From the IMG/VR virus record IMGVR_UViG_3300027899_000058, positions 1 through 27,212 of that record: a DNA stretch of 27,212 bases; one strand, 5' to 3'. This DNA is from a virus. Positions within the stretch are counted from its first letter, which is position 1; the number at the start of each line of letters is the position of its first letter. The notes under the pieces were generated by a model, which saw only the letters and a list, made by a program, of their open reading frames with translations, did not search any database and was not told where the DNA came from. Positions 24,995 through 26,838 of the stretch are shown here, in pieces. A program made the translations under genes and the position numbers.

Positions 24995-25915
24995 TTATAA
25001 ACTTACAAGCATGTCTACCAGCTCTGTTTGCGGAAACATGTCAACTTTACCTTTCTGAACATTGGTGTGATTCCATAAGCCTTTGGTAGTTTTACACATA
25101 TCTTCATTACATGTGTCAAATGCTTTCTGAGCACCCGCTAACTTAATCAACTCAGGTAGGCCTTTTCTAATATCAATACCATCACGCTCTCCAATAAACA
25201 AAATATTCTTTTTAAGACTCTCAATTTGTTTATCTGAATATTTATGCCAGAACTCGTAACCTCTGAAAGCTTTACTTAATTTAACAACTTGTTCAGAAGC
25301 AGCTTCAACACCTACGTAAGTATAAAAAGAATTTGATTTTAGAGCAATCCATTTACCATCCTTGGTATAACCACCTTTAGTAAGCTGGCCAAAGTTACAT
25401 ACTTCAATACCAATTGAATTTCTATGCATGATATTATTACCAGTACCTAGATGCCAGGCATAACCACTACGAGGAAAAGCCTGCACAATGACACCGTCAG
25501 CTTTAAATTCTTCACCTTTAATAGATTGCCCACCTATAACAAACTCAGTTGCTACCGGACCACGAGTATCTTTACCCCATTGGACAATAGTATTAAAAGG
25601 ATCATGCCAACCGGCAGTGTGATGTAAGAACAACCACTCTTTCTTAGTAGGCCCAACTAGATACTCACCAGCCGGAAGATGTAACCTTTTAAATTCAAAA
25701 GAAGGTTCCGCCTTTTCCGATAGATCAGTTGTGATGTACCCCATCTTAGTCATGGTATCAGTACCAACAATCCCATCCGGCGTTAACCCGTTTAACAATT
25801 GCCAAGCTCTAACCTTAAGCGCGGTACCTGAACCAAAGATACCATCATCAGTAACTTTTAAAAATCTCTGTAATTGTTTTACATCCTCACCAGTGGATCC
25901 TATCTTTAATACCAT
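24995..25915 (-). CDS. N-acetylmuramoyl-L-alanine amidase with peptidoglycan-binding domain (endolysin)
   Basis: The frame opens at GTG 25939, but ATG 25915 is preferred because the MVLKIGSTGEDVKQLQRFL start is the usual beginning of a PG_binding_1 domain; this gives 306 residues. Residues 1-60 are that domain (GSTGEDVKQLQ, DGIFG, PDGIVGTDT). Residues 92-295 are an Amidase_2/PGRP domain: HHTAGWHDP (zinc ligand near His98/99), GQ-x-IKGEEF, AWHLG (155), IGIEVCN (168-174), then WNHTNVQKGKVDMFP with His283 and Asp292 as likely further zinc ligands. It should cut the amide bond between MurNAc and L-Ala. No signal peptide is present, so release through a holin is expected. It is the first gene of the minus-strand block. 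Confidence 0.9.
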   Translation of the reverse strand: MVLKIGSTGEDVKQLQRFLKVTDDGIFGSGTALKVRAWQLLNGLTPDGIVGTDTMTKMGYITTDLSEKAEPSFEFKRLHLPAGEYLVGPTKKEWLFLHHTAGWHDPFNTIVQWGKDTRGPVATEFVIGGQSIKGEEFKADGVIVQAFPRSGYAWHLGTGNNIMHRNSIGIEVCNFGQLTKGGYTKDGKWIALKSNSFYTYVGVEAASEQVVKLSKAFRGYEFWHKYSDKQIESLKKNILFIGERDGIDIRKGLPELIKLAGAQKAFDTCNEDMCKTTKGLWNHTNVQKGKVDMFPQTELVDMLVSL

Positions 25916-25955
25916 AATAATTTTTTTGCTAATATACACACTATAAGAGACATAA

Positions 25956-25989
25956 ACAATAATCCCCAGAATTACCCGGGGATTATTGT
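25956..25989 (-). terminator. 12-bp hairpin in the leader of the late block
   Basis: ACAATAATCCCC (25956-25967) pairs perfectly with GGGGATTATTGT (25978-25989) around a 10-base loop. On the minus strand the stem is followed by a T-rich stretch (TTATG then TCTC), weak for a terminator. If the promoter at 26096 is real, the hairpin lies within its transcript about 40 bases before the amidase start and could attenuate it or shield the mRNA end. It might also stop plus-strand transcription. Confidence 0.5.
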
Positions 25990-26073: not shown

Positions 26074-26130
26074 AGCAGAGTAAAGCTTTCTGCTACAAAT
26101 ATACACAACGCTTTTTAAAAAAAAAATTTT
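26074..26130 (-). promoter_or_regulatory. Candidate late promoter
   Basis: On the minus strand TATATTTG (plus 26096-26103) is an exact Bacteroidota -7 form. The -33 place (about 26123) falls in a long T run rather than TTTG, and an A/T tract at 26113-26130 lies there like an UP element. A transcript would start near 26090 and carry a small hairpin (26074-26079 with 26089-26094 lies at its first bases) and then the 12-bp hairpin. It is the best promoter candidate for the amidase-led block. Confidence 0.45.
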
Positions 26131-26166
26131 GGAGTATAAAAAAACAAGATGAGTGTTAGTTTGTGT

Positions 26167-26217
26167 GGGGTCTATATTAAACGACCCCCGGCCAAACTTC
26201 CAGCGGGGGCTACCCCC
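26167..26217. other. GC-rich island with mutually exclusive hairpins
   Basis: In plus-strand order the arms are GGGGTC (26167-26172), GACCCCCG (26183-26190), CGGGGG (26204-26209) and CCCCC (26213-26217). Arm 1 pairs with arm 2, arm 2 with arm 3 (6 bp, 13-base loop), and arm 3 with arm 4 (5 bp, 3-base loop); these pairings exclude each other. It stands out by GC content in an AT-rich genome. A switch-like RNA or protein-binding DNA element is possible on either strand; no known riboswitch or ncRNA class is recognised. Confidence 0.6.
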
Positions 26218-26386
26218 TATGCAAATTGCCAGACCTTTTTGAATTCCTGCTGTGTATAAATAAAGCATTCTTTTCCTAGGAGTGTTGATGGCATCTAAGA
26301 TACAGAAGGAATGATGTGTGTCTACATGTCTTCCTACCATGTCATCATACGTTAATCATCACAGGTCATCATCTATTGTTATATGT

Positions 26387-26432
26387 TATCAGTACTCTTG
26401 CTGTGTACATATTATATTAAGCCTTTCCTAGT
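26387..26432 (+). promoter_or_regulatory. Upstream motif, copy 1 (candidate early promoter)
   Basis: TATCA (26387-26391), TATTATAT (26410-26417) and CCTTTCCT (26422-26429) followed by AGT lie ahead of the first plus-strand gene. The same three words in the same order occur ahead of the second plus-strand gene. It does not match the host -33/-7 form, so a phage-specific promoter is conceivable. Confidence 0.4.
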
Positions 26433-26464
26433 ACTTGCCTACTATCCAATAGGTATCATACACC

Positions 26465-26731
26465 ATGTATACATTACGTTATAGAACATCAGAGAATCCA
26501 GAAGCATTAAGAGTTGAAGAGTTTCATCTACAAGATGCGGCATTACAGACTGCAATTGATTTACATTACAAAGGCATTAGAGGTAGATACCAATATTGGG
26601 ATATAACCCTTGATGGAGAACACGTTGACTGGAAAGAAGCTGAGATATTATTAGCTTACAAAGCTGATCTTGAGAGAAGACAAGACTTCATTGCTATGAG
26701 TAATTGGGATGTAGACCAATTGCCCTTCTAA
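26465..26731 (+). CDS. 88-residue protein, first plus-strand gene
   Basis: The protein begins MYTLRYRTSENPEALRVEEF and has EFHLQDAALQTAIDLHYKGI, then YQYWDITLDGEHVDWKEAEI and an acidic end (NWDVDQLPF). It is a small alpha/beta protein without signal, Cys or membrane segment. A strong hairpin terminator follows eight bases after the stop and a repeated motif precedes it, so it forms its own short transcript. Its opposite direction from the late genes suggests early expression. Codons are less A/T-biased than in the fibre genes. No family is recognised and no function can be given. Confidence 0.75.
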   Translation: MYTLRYRTSENPEALRVEEFHLQDAALQTAIDLHYKGIRGRYQYWDITLDGEHVDWKEAEILLAYKADLERRQDFIAMSNWDVDQLPF

Positions 26732-26737
26732 TGATAT

Positions 26738-26760
26738 AGCCCTTCGGGGCTTTATCTTTT
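26738..26760 (+). terminator. Rho-independent terminator after the first plus-strand gene
   Basis: AGCCC (26738-26742) pairs with GGGCT (26747-26751) around the very stable loop TTCG, followed by TTATCTTTT. It lies seven bases past the stop codon of the 88-residue gene. Confidence 0.9.
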
Positions 26761-26788
26761 CCCACGTCACTCCGCTCCGCTTCGTTCC

Positions 26789-26831
26789 TATCAACTATAC
26801 TTTCTAGTATTATATCTTGTCCTTTCCTTGT
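26789..26831 (+). promoter_or_regulatory. Upstream motif, copy 2 (candidate early promoter)
   Basis: TATCA (26789-26793), TATTATAT (26808-26815) and CCTTTCCT (26821-26828) followed by TGT precede the second plus-strand gene by ten bases. Word order and most spacing agree with copy 1. As copy 2 directly follows a strong terminator, a new transcript has to start here, which supports a promoter. Confidence 0.45.
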
Positions 26832-26838
26832 CACTGCT

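Follow-up and report, generated by a model that had tools for sequence, protein, structure and literature searches.

The crAss-like phages, which are among the most abundant viruses of the human gut, possess a QDE-1-like two-barrel RNA polymerase, not a T7-like enzyme such as that of N4. Promoters of the N4 type are typified by fixed contacts in loop and stem (a purine at -11 and a G at -8), with the +1 position at a set distance, and promoters of the primary sigma factor in the Bacteroidota carry the -7 box TAnnTTTG. The virion polymerases of N4 and N4-like phages employ GC-rich hairpin promoters near the early genes, with stems of 4–7 bp and loops of 3 nt (PMC4496689, PMC3715699). For the two-barrel virion RNA polymerase of Thermus phage P23-45, an AT-rich, phage-specific motif located before the pre-early genes has been reported (PMC10770324). 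In the crAss-like phage phi14:2, the early operon is transcribed by a conserved RNA polymerase of the virion, homologues of which are present in all members of the group (PMC8375218).

The locus described here lies in a stretch of 27,212 nucleotides (the window), which comprises positions 1–27,212 of record IMGVR_UViG_3300027899_000058, given as one strand. Judging from its predicted proteins (Crass_capsid, PF23898; terminase and portal of the crAss type), the window represents part of a crAss-like phage genome. Its late genes are oriented leftward, in a block that ends at the endolysin (start at 25915), and rightward genes follow from 26465. The latter are labelled early by comparison with crAss001, whose transcription map shows the genes at the corresponding end being switched on first (PMC8375218). 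The first-pass annotation had placed a GC-rich four-arm element, suggested to be a small RNA, an attenuator or switch, a protein-binding site separating early from late transcription or part of an origin, between the late block and the early genes, and the gene layout bears out this position:

24995–25915, minus strand: endolysin (PG_binding_1 and Amidase_2), first gene on the late side
26465–26731, plus strand: first early ORF, 88 aa, 77% identity in a close relative (see below)

Sequence comparison shows that most of the crAss-like phages examined have a cis-element where early and late genes meet, just ahead of the first early genes, and that the four-arm patch is the window's copy of it. 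This element is probably either the start of infection-initiating transcription or the end of the linear genome. On the early strand it consists of a C-box (C-box 1), a spacer of approximately 23 nt that usually has a G-run towards its end, and a further C-box (C-box 2). The same element may have been described elsewhere before.

Four GC-rich arms in the window and their close relative

The arms had been reported correctly in both position and sequence, and arms 2, 3 and 4 correspond, by the same comparison, to C-box 1, the G-run and C-box 2 of the order-wide element:

26158–26163, plus strand: AGTTTG, which can pair with CAAACT at 26193–26198, outside hairpin 1:2
26167–26172, plus strand: arm 1, GGGGTC, which pairs with GACCCC at 26183–26188; kept in the close relative, mostly clade-specific across the order
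26173–26179, plus strand: TATATTA in the loop of hairpin 1:2; the relative has TATTATA at the same place
26183–26190, plus strand: arm 2, GACCCCCG, which contains C-box 1
26185–26189, plus strand: C-box 1 (within arm 2), with an aligned counterpart on the early strand in 20 other crAss-like genomes
26204–26209: arm 3, CGGGGG, with the G-run part at 26205–26209, plus strand
26213–26217, plus strand: arm 4, CCCCC, which is C-box 2

The G-run is located 3 nt 5' of C-box 2 and is able to pair with either C-box. It had been proposed that the arms pair only in exclusive combinations; pairing 2:3 does exclude both others, whereas 1:2 and 3:4 are compatible, so that exclusivity was overstated. The nearest-neighbour energies are -10.2 (1:2), -9.2 (3:4), -19.4 (1:2 and 3:4 together) and -12.1 kcal/mol (2:3). 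In the folded strand, hairpin 1:2 is lengthened by the AGTTTG/CAAACT pair, which was absent from the earlier description; AGTTTG at 26158–26163 belongs to a G/T-rich box (GTTTGTGTG) that recurs 5' of C-box 1 in other phages.

The patch is a genuine GC island and the most GC-rich 55-nt stretch of the window: 34 of the 55 nucleotides at 26163–26217 are G or C, a content reached by only 5 of the 27,158 segments of this length in the window, and the top segments overlap the patch. The arrangement C5-N18-G5-N3-C5 (up to 3 mismatches) has one match in the window and none in 100 shuffles, and such a combination of a G-run flanked by two C-runs would not be expected there by chance. Folding stability by itself is unremarkable (z of about -0.9 to -1.9; -0.9 and -1.6 as RNA, -1.7 and -1.85 as DNA); the case for the element comes from other phages. 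The patch had been said to resemble no known RNA class, and Rfam indeed holds no family for it. A covariance search of the window gave nothing at the gathering score, a permissive search returned only sub-threshold chance matches around the region (E values 0.7–1.7), and in eight other crAss-like loci no Rfam family was found at the element.

Scans of viral contigs and genome contigs yielded one close relative spanning the region, IMGVR_UViG_3300008259_000501. A block just upstream of the arms is better conserved in it than the coding flank on the endolysin side (86%). The relative retains hairpin 1:2, with GGGGTC/GACCCC changed to GGGGGTC/GGCCCCC, which introduces one wobble and adds one pair; the outer AGTTTG stem loses one pair. 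Arms 3 and 4 (the G-run and C-box 2) are missing, and the alignment skips from 26203 to approximately 26434. The loop TATTATA of the relative matches an early intergenic module, TATTATA-N5/6-CCTTTCCTTG, which precedes several rightward genes of the relative and has two copies in the window. Outside the relative, a search of viral contigs turned up the TATTATA-CCTTTCC module once per matching contig, and none of those contigs was detectably similar to the window.

26094–26168, no strand assigned: 75-bp block, 73/75 identical to the relative; includes the A/T tract at 26112–26130
26410–26438, plus strand: early intergenic module copy, TATTATA-N5-CCTTTCCTAG
26808–26837, plus strand: early intergenic module copy, TATTATA-N6-CCTTTCCTTG

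The covariation check suggested for the arms lends no support to a base-paired RNA, since this sole close relative shows no compensatory double changes with respect to the window and lacks arms 3 and 4. With a single close relative at hand, covariation was replaced by the recurrence of the twin C-boxes in distant genomes. Two further observations concern the same pair of sequences. The control region of the relative (L002 4865–4932) carries a 34-bp tandem duplication, with the unit GTATA..TTAGTTTG, of which the window has a single copy. At 26732–26800 of the window, a region with AGCCCTTCGGGGCT and CTCCGCTCCGCTTCG, approximately 60 nt are identical in the relative, whereas the flanks are about 85% identical.

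A twin C-box element across crAss-like phages

The survey began with the divergent gaps of 19 crAss-like genomes, a count that includes the window and its relative. Most of these gaps were enriched in runs of at least four G or C. A strict pattern, CCCC(C), 17–25 nt, CCCC, was composed after viewing the 19 genomes. It is found at the junction in the early orientation in 16/19 genomes, with two other matches in 559 kb (both strands counted), and it occurs in 14 of 17 gaps, compared with 0.29 expected from dinucleotide shuffles. In crAss001 and cr108_1 the pattern falls outside the gap assigned from the annotation, yet directly 5' of the early genes. Three genomes had no match to the strict pattern: the close relative, which has C-box 1 alone; cr125_1, whose second box is CCC; and cr124_1. 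Because it had been fitted to this first set, six further genomes were taken as a held-out set, in which 4/5 were positive (DAC15, cr126_1, frurule and cr85_1) and cr3_1 was negative. The sixth, cr111_1, showed no early/late junction in the region examined, and the same holds for ProJPt-Bp1 and cr273_1; p-crAssphage was outside the sample. Several of the genomes are close kin, so that independent lineages are fewer than the genome counts. This recurrence in distant crAss-like phages (terminase approximately 25% identical) supports the earlier idea of a conserved control element.

Read from upstream, the element comprises an A/T tract, a G/T-rich stretch often with GTGTG, 13–20 nt, C-box 1, the spacer and C-box 2. 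The distance from C-box 1 to C-box 2 is 22–25 nt in 18/20 genomes and 18–19 nt in two, and in most genomes a G-run (at least three G) lies 3–6 nt ahead of C-box 2; FpV4 and cr11_1 have both C-boxes and no G-run. From the end of C-box 2 to the first annotated early CDS there are 26–91 nt in 14 genomes. Within the stretches examined of phi14:2 (58 kb), FpV4 (58 kb) and cr55_1 (38 kb), the element was found only once.

The G-run can pair with C-box 2 across a short loop and with C-box 1 across a longer one. MAFFT alignment left the C-boxes unregistered, and pairs were scored by script against spacer shuffles. Pairing exceeds the shuffles for both boxes (Fisher p of about 4e-11 for C-box 2 and 1e-6 for C-box 1, values inflated by relatedness), although a conserved G-run without structure would also yield such an excess. 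Of the 14 short-loop G4/C4 hairpins detected on 280 kb of early strand, 12 fall within the element; across the order the loops are 3–8 nt long, and the aligned genomes share no common loop sequence. What is conserved order-wide is, on these comparisons, two C-boxes at fixed spacing with a G-run, rather than covarying stems. The inverted repeat of arms 1 and 2 was considered as an order-wide feature and set aside (mean arm of 4.2 versus 3.8 in shuffles, which is unconvincing); it is pronounced only in the window, in its relative and in a few others, with looser counterparts of arm 1 in a few genomes.

Transcription start, genome end and other possible functions

The element of the window resembles the N4 promoters in that GGGGG-CTA-CCCCC would form a stem of 5 bp with a loop of 3 nt, in its adjacency to the early genes, and in belonging to a phage with an RNA polymerase in the virion. 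It differs from them in that N4 has three promoter copies and this element only one, in its variable loops devoid of a fixed purine, in the extra upstream C-box at fixed spacing, and in that the hairpin is missing in the close relative, FpV4 and cr11_1. As the fixed loop bases of N4 are absent from the aligned crAss-like genomes, N4 is taken as an analogy and not as a class to which the element belongs. The likeness to P23-45 is that of a phage-specific motif 5' of the first genes together with a two-barrel virion polymerase; the P23-45 motif is, in contrast, AT-rich and without C-boxes, and no hairpin has been reported for it. Promoters of the Bacteroidota sigma type share the A/T-rich tract and the control-region position, and a leftward box at 26096–26106 fits TAnnTTTG. 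However, TAnnTTTG was present 5' of C-box 1 in only 3/21 genomes and had no consistent place on the early strand, which makes a host sigma promoter less likely.

As the likeliest function, we tentatively infer that the element may serve as the entry signal through which the phage's own RNA polymerase, packaged in the virion, starts early transcription in place of a host sigma factor. This polymerase is a candidate because it occurs throughout the crAss-like phages and, in phi14:2, is responsible for transcription of the early operon. In its most detailed form, the model would have the polymerase recognise the short hairpin GGGGG-CTA-CCCCC, or contact the C-boxes as duplex; transcripts would begin near C-box 2 and continue into the early genes, and pairing of the G-run with C-box 1 would be an inactive alternative state or a by-product. 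Counting against a start signal are the relative, which has neither G-run nor C-box 2, the absence of the G-run in FpV4 and cr11_1 and of the whole element in cr124_1 and cr3_1, and a loop that varies in sequence and length, unlike that of N4. In addition, the other early genes of the relative use TATTATA-N5/6-CCTTTCC, which has no hairpin, and the DAC15 genome end, 13 nt from C-box 1, suits a packaging site equally. That packaging site is the main rival, which we consider somewhat unlikely: terminase would cut concatemers just 5' of C-box 1, with the C-boxes and hairpin as its putative recognition signal, and the early/late junction of the circular map would be the physical end of the linear genome. 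In DAC15, a direct terminal repeat of 1,842 bp is annotated, both copies being identical, and the right terminus (the outer end of the repeat) lies 13 nt upstream of the C-run in C-box 1. DAC17 matches up to the same boundary in two places, and the cr85_1 record has one of its ends within C-box 1. Nevertheless, terminal repeats are annotated in just two close relatives, DAC15 and DAC17, and the close, early-side-biased spacing to the first early gene would be unnecessary for packaging. If the DAC15 boundary is valid in other genera, the element would mark a genome end, and could be a packaging site or a promoter situated at a terminus of the molecule; these functions are compatible with each other. 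The fullest version is unlikely as a whole: in it, the entire order would share one twin C-box promoter that forms a hairpin, lies at the physical terminus of the linear genome and is recognised by the QDE-1-like virion RNA polymerase during DNA entry. Were it true, a solution like that of N4 would have been reached independently by an unrelated polymerase.

Two other functions are possible, and less supported. A role as the 5' leader of the early mRNA, in which a transcript with C-box 1, G-run and C-box 2 would switch co-transcriptionally between the C1:G and G:C2 hairpins and so affect stability, translation or elongation, seems to us decidedly unlikely. It accords with the position of the element, with the above-shuffle pairing of the G-run with each C-box (its p values inflated by relatedness), and with the occurrence of structured RNAs such as Hatchet ribozymes in the early regions of crAss-like phages. 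On the other hand, no compensatory changes were found, no T-run is present, the stems are seldom longer than the G- and C-runs, and FpV4 and cr11_1 keep the C-box spacing in the absence of a G-run. A classical attenuator, one of the options raised initially, is also unlikely since none of these hairpins is followed by a T-run when read on the early strand; between 25900 and 26500 no early-strand terminator was found, the two terminator-like sites there both being on the minus strand. Part of a replication origin, in which a phage initiator would bind the A/T tract and the repeated C-boxes, is improbable: an A/T tract does lie upstream of C-box 1 in nearly all genomes, and the element is single-copy within the stretches examined, but it lacks the iteron array typical of origins and stays at a fixed closeness to the early CDS, and skew is uninformative in a fragment such as the window. 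A chance GC-rich patch with accidental pairing, to which the modest folding scores and the missing arms 3 and 4 of the closest relative might point, was already disfavoured and is scarcely credible given the recurrence at the homologous place in distant genomes, the held-out set included.

A short element at a predictable place in most families is a concrete target for mapping of start sites, polymerase binding and termini, and could be used as a marker of the early/late junction in unannotated genomes. If it is a start signal, it also bears on how the crAss-like virion RNA polymerase locates the early genes.

Late-side flank and nearby RNAs

On the late side, two leftward promoter-like boxes are conserved in the relative:

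26096–26106, minus strand: promoter-like box GTGTATATTTG, containing TAnnTTTG
25929–25939, minus strand: second promoter-like box GTGTATATTAG, just before the endolysin start

Between them, at 25956–25989, is a strong hairpin (CAATAATCCCC/GGGGATTATTG) that is weakened in the relative by two mismatches. The early region of the relative (L006) has several non-coding gaps of 394–1081 nt between rightward genes, and large structured RNAs are possible in these. A hammerhead-like RNA (L006 1463–1530, minus strand; RAGATH-1 model, E value 0.029, below the gathering score) lies in the 1,081-nt gap before a DUF2828 protein, with the core letters CUGAUGA, GAAAC and GUC present. On the early side of the crAss-like phages cr4_1, cr109_1 and cr50_1, Hatchet ribozymes exceeded the Rfam gathering score:

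L036 2281–2433 and 2538–2696, minus strand: Hatchet ribozymes
L041 1349–1477, minus strand: Hatchet ribozyme
L035 11392–11519, plus strand: Hatchet ribozyme

An early-side gap of cr4_1 also contains a RAGATH-7 RNA (L036 2914–3130, minus strand).
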